Of a DNA stretch of 64,000 bases, positions 49,670 through 59,190 are shown piece after piece. Origin of the DNA: Candidatus Hydrothermarchaeum profundi (GTDB lineage: Archaea; Hydrothermarchaeota; Hydrothermarchaeia; Hydrothermarchaeales; Hydrothermarchaeaceae); the NCBI GenBank assembly GCA_002011125.2, contig MTMF02000009.1, forward strand, positions 774,989 to 838,988, written 5' to 3'. Each line of letters begins with the position of its first letter. Within the stretch, counting starts at the first letter, position 1. A program made the position numbers and the translations under genes. The notes below the pieces were generated by a model. The model had not been told where the DNA came from, did no database searches, and worked only from the letters and a program-made list of their open reading frames with translations.

Positions 49670-50584
49670 TTAGAACCACGCAAACCACTCAGGTATCCCC
49701 TCTAATATGATCTTATCTCTCCAGAAAGTTATCCCCTTAACCTTCTCGCTTCTTTTCCATTCATAGGCGTAAATAATATCCTTTACCTTATCCACCTTCC
49801 ACACAGGAGTAAGCTGAGGCTCGGCCTCTTCTATACTGCTTAAATATTTCATCTCGACAGGCACAACGGAGCGTTTAGAAAATATAGGAGCCAAAGAGTT
49901 CCGGAAAGTAAACCACTCATCCCAGTCAGGTACCTCAAGATCAGTTTCTTTCTTATAGTCCTCATAATATAACTTCTCCTTACCCAGCTCAGATGAATAT
50001 GGAGCCGGAGAAGCCTCGATAAGAGCAGCACCTTCAACAACCCACGGGGCGGTAATAAACCCTGGAGAAGATAATTCTAAAGTGAATTCTTGATACCATC
50101 TCACCACTTTAATGCTTGGATTCTCTTTTTCAATTTTCTGAGGGTCTATAGTCCCGCTCCCTCCTATATCATTAACCGTAACCTTGATGATCGCCCCCTC
50201 ATTAGGCTTCAGCCACCATCCATACCTATCCCCTATCTTAATCACATGCTTTATAGGATTACCCGCTTCCGCTGCTCCTCGGCCAGTAAAAACTTCTCCT
50301 CTTCCAAGTAATGATTGCTTATCGTAGGGTAAGCCATAGATCCTCCAAAGGCCAAATTCTCTTACAGCATAGGACTGAGCAAAAGTACCAGAGGCCTCAG
50401 GAGTCCAGCCAGAGGGCAATGCAATGAAAATCTTATTATATCCCCAGTTTTCGATCTTTGCCTCTATCCTTGTGTTAATTTTGCTAATAGATCCATCAGG
50501 CACTTCCAGCATTTCAAATCCAGATTCTGCAGTAACTATCGAGAAACTTAACAACAACGTTAGGGCGAGAATAATCCATTTCAA
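49670..50584 (-). CDS. Secreted protein of unknown function
   Basis: 304 residues with a clear signal peptide (MKWIILALTLLLSFSIVTAE). The mature part is rich in W, Y and G (YNKIFIALPSGWTPEASGTF, VIKIGDRYGWWLKPNEGAII) and looks like a beta-sandwich. There is no C-terminal membrane anchor. It follows the DUF515-like gene by 16 bases in the same direction, so the two may form one cell-surface unit, perhaps with the pilus system nearby. Confidence 0.7.
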   Translation of the reverse strand: MKWIILALTLLLSFSIVTAESGFEMLEVPDGSISKINTRIEAKIENWGYNKIFIALPSGWTPEASGTFAQSYAVREFGLWRIYGLPYDKQSLLGRGEVFTGRGAAEAGNPIKHVIKIGDRYGWWLKPNEGAIIKVTVNDIGGSGTIDPQKIEKENPSIKVVRWYQEFTLELSSPGFITAPWVVEGAALIEASPAPYSSELGKEKLYYEDYKKETDLEVPDWDEWFTFRNSLAPIFSKRSVVPVEMKYLSSIEEAEPQLTPVWKVDKVKDIIYAYEWKRSEKVKGITFWRDKIILEGIPEWFAWF

Positions 50585-50600: not shown

Positions 50601-51764
50601 CTATTTTTTGGATATAGTCACAAAAATATTCTCCCGCTCAGGTGAAGTAGGAGAAGCCTTCAACACTAGGTCCGGGACTTCGTCTTCACTCACCTCAAAT
50701 AAGATAAGGTACTCTGCCTCGAGGTCACCTATCCCCATTTCGCTTTCTATCCTATTCAATTCGTACCCAAAGTTTCTTAGGCTTTCATCCAAGTCTTCTT
50801 CAGAGACCTTCCCAGCAGCTATAACTTTTTGAATCTCAGAAACATCTACGCTGAAGATTGTTTCAGTTTGCATACTTCTTCCCCCCGCGCTCCCTGCAAA
50901 GCTCCCTGGAAGGGTTCCCCAGCCTCCTGAAGATAATGGTGGTAAAGGAAATGTACTCATTGTCCCTTTTCCTTCTGCTCCTCCACCCGCCTCGGCTTTA
51001 GATTCTCTTTCCGTGAGAGATATCACCCCACTCTCCTTTCCCCTCATAATAGCAGTTACTACAGCATCTTTTGCTAATAAAGTAACATTCTCATCTTCTT
51101 TAAGCCAAATATTCACGATGTTCCCTGGCTCAGCCCATCCTCCAGCTTGTTCTCTGGTTAACCTAATTGGGAAATACTCTCTATAAAACTTGCCCACAGA
51201 TGCATCTTTAAGCTGTATATAGGATAACCGATCTATTGTCTCCAAAACCGTGGTATATCCTCTATAAATCTGTCCCTCGACTTCTATCTTTATATTCTCT
51301 GCGGGCATCAGCTCTTCAACTTTATCTTTCAAATATGACCGCCAAGCCTCTGTGGCAGGAGTGGCGACATCTATTGCACTAATCTGGGCAGTGGTTTTCG
51401 CTTTGTTCAGTTCATCAAGTAAAGACGCTTTTGCGGTAATATATACGGATGGTAAACCCAAGAAGGCGTTATTTATTTCTTTCAGTTTTTCAGACTTAGC
51501 CTGTAAAAAAGCTTGTTCGGCCGCTTTTTTAGCCGCTAGCTCAGCTTCTTTCCCCTCTTGCATTGGCTTATAGAGGAAGGTGTATCCTGCTAGAAACACA
51601 ACTCCTATTATGATAACTATGACTAATATTCCAACCCCCCTCGCCAATCTCCTTCTCCTCTCATCTTCAGGCGACGGTTCTTCGGGAGGAGGCTTTTCTT
51701 CTGGTGCACGCTTCCGTAGGGCCTCTAGTCTACCTACTATATCTTCTGGTTCCTTTTCGGCCAT
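50601..51764 (-). CDS. DUF515/CpaB-like membrane protein with SAF-type domain
   Basis: 387 residues: a charged N-terminal 40 residues, one membrane segment (about 43-65), a coiled-coil-like region (KEAELAAKKAAEQAFLQAKS) and a domain with YREYFPIRLTREQAGGWAEPGNIVNIWLKED, which matches the SAF/CpaB-type fold of Flp-pilus assembly proteins and the archaeal DUF515 family. A Gly/Ser-rich linker follows (LPPLSSGGWGTLPGSFAGSAGG). Given the type IV pilus operon 2 kb away, a role in pilus assembly is a reasonable inference. Confidence 0.7.
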   Translation of the reverse strand: MAEKEPEDIVGRLEALRKRAPEEKPPPEEPSPEDERRRRLARGVGILVIVIIIGVVFLAGYTFLYKPMQEGKEAELAAKKAAEQAFLQAKSEKLKEINNAFLGLPSVYITAKASLLDELNKAKTTAQISAIDVATPATEAWRSYLKDKVEELMPAENIKIEVEGQIYRGYTTVLETIDRLSYIQLKDASVGKFYREYFPIRLTREQAGGWAEPGNIVNIWLKEDENVTLLAKDAVVTAIMRGKESGVISLTERESKAEAGGGAEGKGTMSTFPLPPLSSGGWGTLPGSFAGSAGGRSMQTETIFSVDVSEIQKVIAAGKVSEEDLDESLRNFGYELNRIESEMGIGDLEAEYLILFEVSEDEVPDLVLKASPTSPERENIFVTISKK

Positions 51765-51892: not shown

Positions 51893-52648
51893 TTATATAC
51901 TGAAGATTTCTTTGAAACGTGATAATAGAGAATATTTTGGAGAATATCTTTTACCTATAAGGCCTGCAGCCAGCTTCATTACTTCTTGGGAGGACTTGGA
52001 TCTAGGGTATTTTATAACGAAGGGAGTCTCATAATGCAGTGCTTTTTTGACATTCTTATCATAGGGAATCTTACAAATCACATTGACATCCAAGGTAGCT
52101 TCGACTTCATGAACTTTTACCTCTTGGGGTGTATTCTCAACCATGTTCATAACTCCCCCTATAACTTTAGCTCCCATTCTCTCAGCCAGAATTTTCATCT
52201 TTAAAGCATCAGACACTGAACTCACTTCTGGAGATGTTACAATTAAGACCTCTTGTCCAGCGTCCATTACCATAGCGGCATCTCTCCCCGCGGGAGCATC
52301 TACTACAAGTATCTCTATATCCCGTGGAACTTCTTTTAATGCCGCCTTAAGCATTTCCATATTCTCTTCGTTAAACCCATTCAGAGTGATACCGGCCGGT
52401 ATCAGCTTAACCCCTCGCGGACCCTCAAACATAACGTCCTCTATGCTCAACTTATTCTGTAAAACATCTATCAATGCTACAGGAGGATTTTTAAGCCCCA
52501 TTATAATCTCTAAGTTCGCCATCACGATGTCTGCATCAAGCACAGCAACCCTCTTCCCTAGCATCGCTAATGCAACCGCTATATTCGCAGCCAAGGTAGT
52601 TTTCCCAACGCCGCCTTTCCCGCTGGCGACTACTATCACCCTGGTCAT
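51893..52648 (-). CDS. minD: MinD/ParA-type ATPase
   Basis: 251 residues. Deviant Walker A GKGGVGKTT, AVLDADIVMANLEIIMGL, VVDAPAGRD and a C-terminal amphipathic helix (YSLLSRFKEIFSI) typical of MinD membrane targeting. Such ATPases position division or surface machines; TadZ-like roles in pilus placement are possible given the pilus operon 1.3 kb away. Start overlaps the pgk stop by 4 bases. Confidence 0.9.
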   Translation of the reverse strand: MTRVIVVASGKGGVGKTTLAANIAVALAMLGKRVAVLDADIVMANLEIIMGLKNPPVALIDVLQNKLSIEDVMFEGPRGVKLIPAGITLNGFNEENMEMLKAALKEVPRDIEILVVDAPAGRDAAMVMDAGQEVLIVTSPEVSSVSDALKMKILAERMGAKVIGGVMNMVENTPQEVKVHEVEATLDVNVICKIPYDKNVKKALHYETPFVIKYPRSKSSQEVMKLAAGLIGKRYSPKYSLLSRFKEIFSI

Positions 52649-53958: not shown

Positions 53959-56900
53959 ATGAATTACGACTTTTTAAGAAAAAAAGGTAAAAACGTCTAC
54001 ACTAATGGTGGAGAAGAAAAGATTGGCGGCCTTCTAGGCAAGCTCATGAAGAGGAGGATGAGGGAAGAAGACACTTTAAGCTCCATAGATATGGAGCTGG
54101 AAACCGAGATAGAGGGCGAGGTCATCGAGAGAGGAAAGGGATATAGTATTGTAAAAAAAGAAGGAGAAAAGACACTTTATTATATAGTCTACTTGCCTGA
54201 AATGGATGAGGAACGTAGAAGAGCTTTGAAAGAGATAGAGAGGCGAGCTATTAGCGAGATAGACATAGAGCCCGAGAGTATAGAGGATCCTTTGGAGAGG
54301 AAAGAGATTTTTACTAGGGAGGTGCGGTCTCTTATCGAAAAAGAATTCTCAGAGTTGCCTGAACATGAAAAAAAGGTCTATGCTAGGCTAATAGTCCAGG
54401 ACATGGTTGGCTACGGCTTGCTAGAGCCCCTGCTTGAAGACGACAATCTAGAAGAGGTGATGATTGTTGGCACGAAGAAGAGGGTTTATGTTTATCACAG
54501 GAAGCACGGTATGTGCAAGACGAACATTATATTCCAAGAAGATAGAGAAATAACCAGTATTATAGAGAGGATAGCTAGATCTGTAGGCAGAAGAATAGAT
54601 TTGAGTGCACCCTTATTAGATGCTAGGCTTCCTGATGGTAGCAGGGTCAACGCAACAATACCTCCTGTTTCTCTCACAGGCCCTTCTCTAACTATCAGAA
54701 AATTTAAAGCAGACCCCTTTACTGTTATTGATATAATGAATTTTAGAACAATGACACCTGAGCTGGCCGCCTTTCTTTGGTTGGTTGTAGAGGGATTTGG
54801 AGTGAAGCCGGCGAATATTTTGGTGTCAGGCGGTACTGGATCAGGAAAAACTACGACTCTGAATTGTTTAGGTTCTTTTATACCTCCTACGGATCGTGTT
54901 ATAAGCATAGAAGATACGGCTGAACTCCAGCTTCCCGTTGCGCATTGGGTAAGGTTGGAGACGAGGCCACCTAATATAGAGGGGAGAGGCGAAGTCAGCA
55001 TGGATATGCTCCTTAAGAATACTTTGAGGATGAGGCCTGATAGGATTATAGTTGGCGAGGTAAGGGGTAGTGAAGCATTAACACTTCTTGCGGCTATGAA
55101 TACAGGCCAGAGCGGGTGTCTAGGTACTCTCCACGCTAATACTGCGAGAGAAACTATTACTCGACTTACGAGTGCTCCTATGAATGTCCCCCTTGTGATG
55201 ATACCTTCTCTAAACTTAATTCTCATGCAAAATAGGTTTACTTACAAGGGAAAGGTAGTTAGGAGAATAACGGAAATCGCAGAAATTTCCGGTATTGAAA
55301 GAGATAGAGTTCAGCTAAACATAATATATGAGTGGGACCCTGTAGATGATACAGTGAAGCCGACAGGTTCTCCAAGCATAATGTTAAGAAAGATTGCTGA
55401 GCTGAGAGGCATTGAAGTAAGCGATGTGATTGAGGAAATAAAGAGAAGAGAAAAAGTATTAAGATATCTAATGAAGGAAGGCATAAGAAGCATTACTGAT
55501 GTTGGAAAATTAGTAAATGAGTATTATATTTCACCAGAGAGACTAATGGCTAAAGTAGAGGGGAGGGAAACAAAAGATAAAGCAAAGCGTAAGAGTAATA
55601 AAGGCTATGAGTTCCTAAGAGAAGTTCTTGAGGAAGAGGAAGAAATTAAGGAAATTGTAGAAGAGGGGGAAACCTATAGGATTGTTAGAGAGGAGGGAGA
55701 AAAAAATCCGAAATATATTGTGCCACTGCCTCACCTTACTTCAAGAGATAGGAGGATACTGGCCGAGATTGAAAAGAAAGCGATTAACGAGATAAAGGAA
55801 GATCCTTCTAATCTCGATAAAGAAGAAGCTCGAGTACTTTTCAGGAATAAGGTACTAGAGGTAATGAAAAGAGAATATCCGGGTATAGGTTCTTCTCGAA
55901 GGAAGGAACTTGCTGAACTTATTGTACAGAACATGGTTGGCTACGGCTTGCTGGAACCACTACTGGAGGAGGATGCTTTGGAGGAGATAATGGTTATTTC
56001 TCCAAACAGACCGGTTTATGTAAACCATAGAAAATATGGAACATGTAAGACTAATGTTTCCTTTAGCAATGATGAAGAAATAATGAGAATAATTGAGAAG
56101 ATAGCTAGCTCTGTGGGTAGAAGAATAGATAAAGCGACTCCCCTCCTGGACGCTAGGCTTCCTGATGGTAGCAGGGTCAACGCAACAATACCTCCAATAT
56201 CCATTATGGGGCCGACATTGACTATAAGAAAATTCAGGAAAAACCCACTAACAGTAGTTGACTTAGTGAAATTTAGAACTATAACATTAGAAGTTGCCAC
56301 TTACCTATGGATTATTGTAGAAGGCCTTGGAATAAAACCTGGAAATATACTTGTTGTTGGTGGGAGTGGTTGCGGTAAAACAACAACTCTAAATGTTCTT
56401 TGCTCATTTGTTCCAGATACAGATCGTGTTATAACCATAGAAGATACAGCCGAGCTTAACTTGCCGATTGAGCATTGTATAAAGCTTGAGACTAGACCAC
56501 CAAATGTAGAGGGGCAGGGTGAGGTTACTATGGATGATCTGGTCAAGAATACTTTGAGGATGAGGCCTGATAGGATTATAGTTGGAGAGGTAAGGGGGCC
56601 AGAAGCTAGAACTCTGTTTACTGCAATGAACACAGGCCATGATGGCTGTATGGGCACTCTTCACGCTAACTCTGCAGAAGAGACGATAATTAGGCTAACT
56701 AATCCCCCAATGAGTGTACCAGAGATTATGCTTCCTGCCCTCGATTTAATCTTGATGCAGAGCAAGATTTACCAAGAAGGCAAAACAATTAGAAGGATTA
56801 CAGAGGTCGCCGAGGTGTCGGGTGGAGAAGAGGGGAAAATATCCTTAAATAATGTGTTTAAATGGGATCCGAAAGCAGACTCTTTAAAAGCTACGGGATT

Positions 56901-57117
56901 GCCTAGCATTATAAAGCAAAGGCTTGCGAAGCTTAAGGGAATAAGTCTAGACGAATTAGAAAAAGAAGTTGAAAATAGAAAGAAAGTTTTGACGTGGATA
57001 GTGGAGAATAATATCAGAGAGGACTCAAAGATATATAACAAATATTACTCTGATCCAGAAGGTTTACTAAAAGAAATAGCAATAAAAGCCACAGCAGATG
57101 GAGGAGAGAATGCCTGA
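53959..57117 (+). CDS. Tandem-fused type II/IV secretion (GspE/TadA) ATPase, two complete copies
   Basis: 1052 residues made of two full ATPases in a row. Copy 1 covers about residues 40-540: Walker A GGTGSGKTT near 293, Walker B region DRIIVGEVRG near 361, His-box TLHANTARETITRL near 393. Copy 2 covers about 555-1050: Walker A GGSGCGKTT near 802, DRIIVGEVRG near 871, TLHANSAEETIIRL near 903. Each starts with an N1D-like helical part (EKKVYARLIVQDMVGYGLLEPLLE and RKELAELIVQNMVGYGLLEPLLE). These ATPases power assembly of archaeal type IV pili as hexamers. All motor motifs are intact in both halves. First gene of the pilus operon. Confidence 0.95.
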   Translation: MNYDFLRKKGKNVYTNGGEEKIGGLLGKLMKRRMREEDTLSSIDMELETEIEGEVIERGKGYSIVKKEGEKTLYYIVYLPEMDEERRRALKEIERRAISEIDIEPESIEDPLERKEIFTREVRSLIEKEFSELPEHEKKVYARLIVQDMVGYGLLEPLLEDDNLEEVMIVGTKKRVYVYHRKHGMCKTNIIFQEDREITSIIERIARSVGRRIDLSAPLLDARLPDGSRVNATIPPVSLTGPSLTIRKFKADPFTVIDIMNFRTMTPELAAFLWLVVEGFGVKPANILVSGGTGSGKTTTLNCLGSFIPPTDRVISIEDTAELQLPVAHWVRLETRPPNIEGRGEVSMDMLLKNTLRMRPDRIIVGEVRGSEALTLLAAMNTGQSGCLGTLHANTARETITRLTSAPMNVPLVMIPSLNLILMQNRFTYKGKVVRRITEIAEISGIERDRVQLNIIYEWDPVDDTVKPTGSPSIMLRKIAELRGIEVSDVIEEIKRREKVLRYLMKEGIRSITDVGKLVNEYYISPERLMAKVEGRETKDKAKRKSNKGYEFLREVLEEEEEIKEIVEEGETYRIVREEGEKNPKYIVPLPHLTSRDRRILAEIEKKAINEIKEDPSNLDKEEARVLFRNKVLEVMKREYPGIGSSRRKELAELIVQNMVGYGLLEPLLEEDALEEIMVISPNRPVYVNHRKYGTCKTNVSFSNDEEIMRIIEKIASSVGRRIDKATPLLDARLPDGSRVNATIPPISIMGPTLTIRKFRKNPLTVVDLVKFRTITLEVATYLWIIVEGLGIKPGNILVVGGSGCGKTTTLNVLCSFVPDTDRVITIEDTAELNLPIEHCIKLETRPPNVEGQGEVTMDDLVKNTLRMRPDRIIVGEVRGPEARTLFTAMNTGHDGCMGTLHANSAEETIIRLTNPPMSVPEIMLPALDLILMQSKIYQEGKTIRRITEVAEVSGGEEGKISLNNVFKWDPKADSLKATGLPSIIKQRLAKLKGISLDELEKEVENRKKVLTWIVENNIREDSKIYNKYYSDPEGLLKEIAIKATADGGENA

Positions 57118-58243
57118 AAATATATTACTAAAGATAATTGACAGGCTTGGCGAGAAAACCTTGACCGAAGCTGAAAGAGCATATAGAAGAGCAGCCGAGC
57201 TTTCTTTAGTCTTTAGGGAGCAAGATGAGGCTGCTAAAACACTATTAGAGAAAAGAAAAAAAGAGGAGGAAGAAAGGAAAAAAGCACTCGAGGATAGATT
57301 GTCAAAGATAAAAGATGCCGTGATTTTTGAAACGGAGGAAGAGGAACCTGAACTTCTGATTGAAAGAGAAGAACTTAAGGTTCCATTTTCAGCAAGGCTG
57401 GTGAACGTGATATCCGATATATTCTCCAAGTACTCAAAAGCACCAGCGTCCTTCTTTAAAGACATTCAAGAAGACCTATATAAGGCAAACATAATTATGC
57501 CGGCATCCAAATACATAGCTTTCTCTTTTGGAATAAGTATCATAGTAGGAATTGGTAGCGCTGTTTTATTCTCAATTTTATTAGGTAGTATAATAGGGAA
57601 TATCTCCGGCTGGCTGTTAGGACTCGTGCTTGGGTTTCCAACTTTTTTGTTCGTTCTTATGTTCTGCAAAATATATCCTCGTTCAAAGGTAAAATCGAGA
57701 TCGGATGCATTTAGCAGAGAATTACCCTTTGCTCTACGACATATGGCAACTCAACTGACATCGGGTTCTGGACTGCTGGAAACAATGCGCTCTGTTTCCC
57801 AAAGTGATTATGGAGTATTAAGCGAGGAATTCAGAAGGGCTATAATGGAAATAGAGAGAGGAGCCACGGTAGAAGAGGCCTATGAGAGAATGAATCTGCG
57901 TATTGACTCACCAGGGCTGAAAAAAGCTTCAAGGCAGATAATTTCTACTCTTAGAACCGGAGGAAACCTTGCGAATACGCTTAAGATCATAGCAGAGGAA
58001 GTGGCGACTGAGATGAGAATGAAACTTAAGGACTTTATTCAGATGCTTAACACTTTTTCGATGATGTATATGTTTATTGTAGTTGTTGCCCCGGTATTGA
58101 TTACAACTCTGATTATCGCAATGGGCATCGCGATGGGTGGGTTACCTATGCCTCCTCAAATGATGTGGCTACTATATATTGTATTTTTTGGCATCTCCCT
58201 CTACATGTCATTTATGGTTAAAAGATTCGAGCCTAAGGTGTAA
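57098..58243 (+). CDS. TadB/GspF-type pilus assembly membrane protein
   Basis: 381 residues; an alternative ATG at 57110 follows GGAGGAG very closely. A soluble, highly charged N-terminal 130 residues precede two GspF-type (T2SSF) membrane regions: RELPFALRHMATQLTSGSGLLETMRSVSQSDYGVLSEEF is the cytoplasmic four-helix bundle. The protein is a platform on which the ATPase acts. Overlaps the ATPase gene by 20 bases. Confidence 0.88.
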   Translation: MEERMPENILLKIIDRLGEKTLTEAERAYRRAAELSLVFREQDEAAKTLLEKRKKEEEERKKALEDRLSKIKDAVIFETEEEEPELLIEREELKVPFSARLVNVISDIFSKYSKAPASFFKDIQEDLYKANIIMPASKYIAFSFGISIIVGIGSAVLFSILLGSIIGNISGWLLGLVLGFPTFLFVLMFCKIYPRSKVKSRSDAFSRELPFALRHMATQLTSGSGLLETMRSVSQSDYGVLSEEFRRAIMEIERGATVEEAYERMNLRIDSPGLKKASRQIISTLRTGGNLANTLKIIAEEVATEMRMKLKDFIQMLNTFSMMYMFIVVVAPVLITTLIIAMGIAMGGLPMPPQMMWLLYIVFFGISLYMSFMVKRFEPKV

Positions 58244-58248
58244 AAAAT

Positions 58249-59190
58249 ATGGCTAAAAAGCTTTCAAACATGCTGAAGAAGATAAGGGTTCCGAAGTTCC
58301 TAGTGCCTGCAAGGTTTGTTAGACGTATGGATATACTCTTACTTAACGCTAAGATATCTTTCTCAGCTCGGGAGTGGATGGGGATATTCGCATTAACATC
58401 TTTTATATTATTCGTTCTAGGGTCATTGCTAGCGTCTCTTTTAGTTGGTGTCATTCTCTTCGGTGTGGGTATGGGGCTTATGATAATCATCCCCAGACTA
58501 CAAGCTGATAAAAGGAAGGGGCAAATAGAAGAATCATTACCAGACGCTCTACATCATATGTCTGTTGCAATAAGGACAGGATTAGTGCTTGAGAGCGTGA
58601 TACAAGAAATATCTGAGGCCGAGTATGGAGCGTTATCTGATGAGTTCTCTCAGATAGTACTGGAGATGCGTAGAGGAAGGCCCTTAAAGGATGCTCTTCT
58701 AGCATTTTCAAAGAGGACGGGTTCTAAAGAAGTTGAGAGGGCGGTTAGGCTTTTATTGGAAGGAGTGGAGTCCGGGGGTCCAATTTCTGAGGTGTTGGAT
58801 GAGGTATCAGAGGATATGAGAGCAGTTAGGATGGTTCAAAGGGAAAGGAAAACAGCAACTTCGCAGCAAGTGTCATTCCTTGCTATGGCATCGCTTATGG
58901 CGGGTCCCTTCGTGATGGGGGTCGTAGCTTCTCTACCGGATATTATGGTTCAATCGACTGCAGGAATAGGAGTTGGATTGAGTCTCCCTATAGATGAGGT
59001 AAATACTGTGGTTAATGCACTATCATTTTATGTGGTGGCGCAGGCTTGCAGTGCTGCAATAATGATGGGTGTAGTTATGTATGGCGACTTTAAGAAGGGC
59101 TTTAAGTTCATGATACCGATGGGGGCAGCAGCGTTTATTGTTTATAACCTTATAAAATTCATAATGCCTGGCATGGTTGCAGCATTTTAA
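58249..59190 (+). CDS. TadC/GspF-type pilus assembly membrane protein
   Basis: 313 residues, starting 5 bases after the previous gene. EESLPDALHHMSVAIRTGLVLESVIQEISEAEYGALSDEF and VRLLLEGVESGGPISEVLDEVSEDM are the GspF helical bundles, flanked by membrane segments at both ends. It pairs with the preceding protein as the second half of the inner-membrane platform. Confidence 0.88.
   Translation: MAKKLSNMLKKIRVPKFLVPARFVRRMDILLLNAKISFSAREWMGIFALTSFILFVLGSLLASLLVGVILFGVGMGLMIIIPRLQADKRKGQIEESLPDALHHMSVAIRTGLVLESVIQEISEAEYGALSDEFSQIVLEMRRGRPLKDALLAFSKRTGSKEVERAVRLLLEGVESGGPISEVLDEVSEDMRAVRMVQRERKTATSQQVSFLAMASLMAGPFVMGVVASLPDIMVQSTAGIGVGLSLPIDEVNTVVNALSFYVVAQACSAAIMMGVVMYGDFKKGFKFMIPMGAAAFIVYNLIKFIMPGMVAAF

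Follow-up and report, generated by a model that had tools for sequence, protein, structure and literature searches.

Pilus and secretion motors of the PilT/VirB11 family usually carry one ATPase module per chain. The 64,000 nt stretch of Candidatus Hydrothermarchaeum profundi DNA analysed here (the window) encodes a family member with two such modules in one polypeptide, which raises the question of whether this fusion is genuine, which machine it serves and what kind of ring it would form. The answer bears on how PilT/VirB11-family motors turn, i.e. by C2 or by C3 symmetry. C3 alternating structures exist for FlaI, GspE2, DotB and PilT, their role being described as unclear (PMC6858323, PMC5424180), and rotary models based on C2 symmetry have been put forward for PilB and CpaF (PMC5424180, PMC12019362). 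A search of the open-access literature gave no earlier description of a fused PilT/VirB11-family motor.

The tandem-fused pilus assembly ATPase is encoded at positions 53959..57117 of the plus strand in a single frame of 1052 aa, from ATG to stop, with zero internal stops, so that no hidden stop splits the chain. Pfam T2SSE (PF00437) matched two stretches of the protein, the whole scoring 332 bits against a cut-off of 24.9. The N half (residues 62-540, 54142..55578, plus strand) and the C half (residues 573-1050, 55675..57108, plus strand) are 56% identical across 479 aligned residues, and each is a complete FlaI/GspE2/TadA-type ATPase. The linker between them (residues 530-572, 55546..55674, plus strand) is variable, with 10-78 residues in relatives. 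The features tested for membership in the PilT/VirB11-like family were Walker A, the Asp box Glu, the Walker B Glu, the HIS box and the trans arginines. All were present in both halves, the sole loss being the first His of the N-half HIS box. The preliminary description, which had proposed two intact motors in one chain, is thus borne out by the single frame, the two full T2SSE domains and the identity of the halves. Its remark that the protein is unusual for the family also stands, since known relatives are single-copy and two modules are found here; one module per chain is the usual form of the family and not a strict membership criterion.

A monomer model of the fused ATPase generated with AF2 from 12 sequences (mean pLDDT 71, pTM 0.50) repeats the same secondary-structure pattern twice, the placement of the halves relative to each other being of low confidence. 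The model matches GspE2 and FlaI across the length of one half, and archaeal GspE2 (2oap) and FlaI (4ii7) are the closest solved folds; in sequence comparison, the scores of CpaF and 2oap are about equal.

Related archaea were searched for the same architecture, as the preliminary description had proposed, and both halves were found in one frame in 19 genomes, namely 18 of the 20 genomes of the order (including that of the window) and one class-level relative (G021); three of these 19 copies run off a contig end within the C half. The fused relatives are mostly 60-68% identical to the window protein, and the named records carrying the tandem are mostly Hydrothermarchaeota/Pyrohabitans MAGs. 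In G018 the tandem gene is split between two contig ends, in the 62% complete genome G007 no tandem was seen, and the class members G020 and G022 yielded other ATPases only and no tandem. The joining of two adjacent genes through a sequencing or assembly error, which the preliminary description had named among the findings that would refute it, is practically ruled out by these fused orthologues, which have been kept across 19 genomes at the identities given above, and by the long contigs on which tandem copies reside (1.9 Mb for the window and 0.62 Mb for G013). Outside the class, the listed strong matches were single-copy in the phyla of G026 (115 genomes surveyed, apart from one contaminant), G023 (152 genomes) and G029 (19 genomes); these surveys took in strong matches only, and a diverged tandem could have been missed. 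Judging from the misfiled record JdFR-02, which falls there, the G026 phylum would be Thermococcus-like, and the G023 phylum appears methanogen-like. The contaminant is an apparent Thermococcus tandem (L008/L075, 'Thermococcus sp. JdFR-02', MTLP01000018.1), a probable case of binning contamination because its length of 1084 aa and its identical domain scores match those of Pyrohabitans L012/L029 (JdFR-16). Long open frames in some genomes of the G026 phylum were also considered as tandems, and the one examined (L082) has a single Walker A. A 2023-aa frame in G035 (L058:4843-10914) was rejected as well, being a single-copy ATPase relative with two large insertions that carry intein splicing and LAGLIDADG domains.

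The gene neighbourhood was used to assign the motor to a machine. Downstream on the plus strand, two platform proteins that each have one T2SSF domain are encoded, the TadB/TadC-like platform protein 1 (57098..58243), whose gene shares 20 bases with that of the ATPase, and platform protein 2 (58249..59190). A MinD/FleN-type ATPase (51893..52648, TIGR01969) is divergently encoded on the minus strand, followed by a DUF515 protein (50601..51764, minus strand). The order ATPase-T2SSF-T2SSF is conserved in those relatives whose neighbourhood was examined. As the single-copy ATPase genes of G026 and G029 precede the same two T2SSF genes, the operon is conserved, with the fusion as its chief visible alteration. 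In G026 the second gene upstream of the single-copy ATPase encodes a DUF515 protein; homology of a secreted-looking ORF of the window (49670-50584) to a neighbour in G026 was not supported. The T2SSF pair of the window gave the only matches over the cut-off in its own genome. A pilin and EppA-type peptidase locus (L097:6998-10334) lies upstream of the window, at a distance of about 65 kb from its start, and comprises a 390-aa A24 + Arc_PepC peptidase adjoining a 64-aa class III pilin as well as four larger pilin-like ORFs. Since the only T2SSF pair over the cut-off adjoins the fused ATPase, this locus is tied to the fused motor by elimination. The Epd-like (clade 1) set consists of a pair of one-domain T2SSF platform genes, a short major pilin (about 70 aa), EppA and a MinD/TadZ-type ATPase (PMC6668835, PMC4858521), and MinD/FleN-type ATPases are encoded in type IV pilus loci of clade 1 (PMC4858521). 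The window and L097 together contain the one-domain platform pair, the EppA-type prepilin peptidase and the short pilin of this set. With archaellin (PF01917) giving no match in the genome of the window while four archaeal controls were positive, these genes speak for a type IV pilus of the Epd-like kind (clade 1) and not for an archaellum. An archaellum motor (ArlI/FlaI) would accord with the top NCBIfam match, FlaI (NF058587), which lies over its cut-off with a score summed across the two copies, and archaellum genes have been reported for Hydrothermarchaeota in general (PMC6775978). Nevertheless, the missing archaellin match and the Epd-like combination of platform genes, peptidase and 64-aa pilin make this assignment highly improbable, and the NCBIfam name reflects shared ancestry. 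The pilus-type gene set without archaellin also backs the earlier designation as a pilus-type ATPase.

For the origin of the duplication, a maximum-likelihood tree of 57 domains was calculated. The C halves formed one group (support 81/94), as did the N halves of the order (support 100/99), and the nearest relatives in this tree, which held no named Epd reference, were the single-copy genes of G026, G029, G023 and G030. The duplication predates the order, as each half groups with its positional counterparts in other genomes and not with its partner in the same chain. It is old, since the halves are about as distant from each other (51-61% identity) as from the single-copy protein of G026 (52-61%). 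Neither the constraint placing all N halves together (p-AU 0.34) nor that placing all N and C halves together (p-AU 0.38) was rejected, and the same applied to an independent fusion in G021 (p-AU 0.38). Several N/C-specific residues are common to G021 and the order (S290/A800, L352/V862, R426/K936), and these residue patterns favour a single fusion event that includes G021. The fused motor is real and old, an architectural variant of a known motor family that extends across the lineage, and it records that a subunit of the motor ring was duplicated long ago in one group of deep-sea and subsurface archaea.

Both halves are under strong purifying selection, with omega values (NG86, close pairs) of 0.02-0.14 for the N halves and 0.04-0.18 for the C halves; one C-half value was not computable as synonymous sites were saturated. 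The Walker A Lys/Thr, the Asp box Glu and the Walker B Glu were present in 19/19 N halves and 19/19 C halves. The same was true of R357 (by spacing the equivalent of the CpaF R347 arginine finger), R369, Arg229 of the NTD and the second HIS-box His392. The NTD Arg223 is replaced by Lys in one C half. The earlier statement that the key motifs are kept in both halves was accordingly confirmed for Walker A, the Asp box, Walker B and the trans arginines.

The preliminary description had located the difference between the two sites in the Walker loops, GSGK versus GCGK. This difference is real in the genome of the window, where the Walker A of the N half reads GGTGSGKTTTLN (54829..54864, plus strand) and that of the C half GGSGCGKTTTLN (56359..56394, plus strand), but the Cys is not conserved among relatives. 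The variable position of the C halves is Ser in 13 of 19, Cys in five and Thr in one, and it is therefore not what sets the two sites apart. When N and C halves were scanned systematically for positions fixed differently between them, seven came up, and the striking one is in the HIS box. The conserved asymmetry thus lies in the HIS box and had gone unnoticed in the preliminary description. In the window, the HIS box of the N half (TGQSGCLGTLHAN, 55102..55140, plus strand) has Gln384 in place of the first His and retains His392 (TGQ), and that of the C half (TGHDGCMGTLHAN, 56632..56670, plus strand) retains both His894 and His902 (TGH). Among the N halves, 17 of 19 carry TGQ, one carries TGL (G021) and one TGH (G008), whereas all 19 C halves carry TGH. 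Single-copy relatives have His at this position in 18 of 19 cases and Leu in one, and additional single-copy loci beyond these 19 also have TGH. Of the 19 N halves, 18 have consequently lost the first His; the asymmetry is not absolute, as the N half of G008 has His. In G008 (L039), the N-half segment TGHDG...HANSARETITRLTNP closely matches the C half of the same protein, which suggests a local conversion between the halves.

In PilB, T411 makes contact with the neighbouring packing unit and is sandwiched by H413 and H420, the second of which also contacts the gamma phosphate (PMC5424180); CpaF H382, corresponding to the second His, is placed to contact the gamma phosphate (PMC11300603). With residues equated to PilB and CpaF by motif position and spacing and not by structural superposition, the His that faces the phosphate is retained in the N half, and the one on the interface side is lost. 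What probably separates the two types of site is therefore how their interfaces close or cooperate, and not basic ATP binding, since the His missing from the N half is the one that lies against the threonine in PilB. We infer from this conserved substitution that N and C sites differ functionally.

It is likely that duplication and fusion of an Epd-like pilus ATPase fixed an (N-C)3 pseudo-hexamer in which two kinds of site differ from each other. In the Hydrothermarchaeota lineage, a single-copy ancestor of the motor, the assembly ATPase of an EppA-dependent-like pilus, would have undergone tandem duplication and fusion, each fused chain would supply two neighbouring subunits of the motor ring, and three chains would form the pseudo-hexamer N-C-N-C-N-C with a built-in C3, trimer-of-dimers arrangement. 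This ring would drive the two-protein TadB/TadC-like platform and thereby pilin polymerisation. As one protein provides two motor units with a lasting site difference, the ring is probably composed of three double units and not of six single ones, presumably with alternating sites. Subunits n and n+3 would always be one N and one C half, so that exact C2 symmetry is excluded and only pseudo-C2 is possible. The stricter proposal of an obligate alternating-site ring, in which three fused chains contribute three standard and three modified (TGQ) sites, is put forward tentatively and may well not hold. If it is true, this motor would be a natural PilT/VirB11 member in which exact C2 is impossible, and pilus assembly would therefore have to proceed by a C3 or an unequal-step cycle. 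The proposed ring agrees with the crystallised state of GspE2 2oap and FlaI 4ii7, which are classed as OCOCOC, i.e. C3 with alternating open and closed interfaces, but C3 is not the sole state of the nearest relatives since the FlaI structure 4IHQ belongs to a C2-type class (PMC6858323).

Other arrangements of the fused chain have to be weighed against this pseudo-hexamer. Six chains could form a stacked double ring with one N-half and one C-half hexamer, like two-tier AAA+ proteins. Rings of N-N and of C-C contacts are conceivable because all interface residues are kept in both halves, and the linker is long in most species. However, the solved structures of the family are single rings (PMC6858323), the operon retains an ordinary single platform pair, and the 10-residue linker of G021 limits the geometry while being compatible with stacking; we consider such a stack unlikely. 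Splitting of the chain during or after translation, giving two separate ATPases and ordinary hexamers, is more doubtful still. It would fit the poor conservation and low AF2 confidence of the linker, but the linker contains no conserved Met or obvious cleavage motif, and the fusion has persisted across the divergence of the order, where no orthologue with separate halves was seen.

The proposed N-C ring resembles several known systems in part. The F1/V1 ATPase (alpha3 beta3) likewise has alternating unlike nucleotide sites; it belongs to another family, is built from separate chains and has non-catalytic alpha sites, whereas both halves of the fused ATPase keep the catalytic residues. The Epd-like/clade 1 pilus ATPases of Methanococcus and Thermococcus (PMC4858521, PMC6668835) are similar in context, with single-copy relatives about 52-61% identical to each half and with two T2SSF operon partners, a MinD-type ATPase, a DUF515 protein, an EppA-type peptidase and a short pilin. 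The known ATPases of this type are single-copy proteins of about 500-650 aa, in contrast to the two copies with different HIS boxes found here. Archaeal GspE2 (2oap/2oaq) and FlaI (4ii7), the closest folds, are hexamers with alternating open and closed interfaces (PMC6858323); their chains are identical and able to change symmetry, while in the fused ATPase the alternation would be fixed by sequence. TadA/CpaF share the fold, the catalytic residues and two separate platform genes but are single-copy, with C2-symmetric cryo-EM states (PMC12019362). The fused unlike halves offer a natural test of the symmetry question, as exact C2 is not available to them and each half can be mutated separately within one polypeptide, and the single-copy orthologues of other archaea are ready controls.

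Two stand-alone paralogous ATPases without platform genes were additionally observed in the genome of the window (L064:7047-8546 and L065:6642-8045), the former adjoining two KaiC-type genes, one of which has TPR and zinc-ribbon domains. Two adjacent but separate superfamily ATPase genes occur in G017 (L059:2343-5660) and likewise in G013, G014, G016 and G018; each is about 35% identical to the window protein, and they may represent unfused motor pairs.
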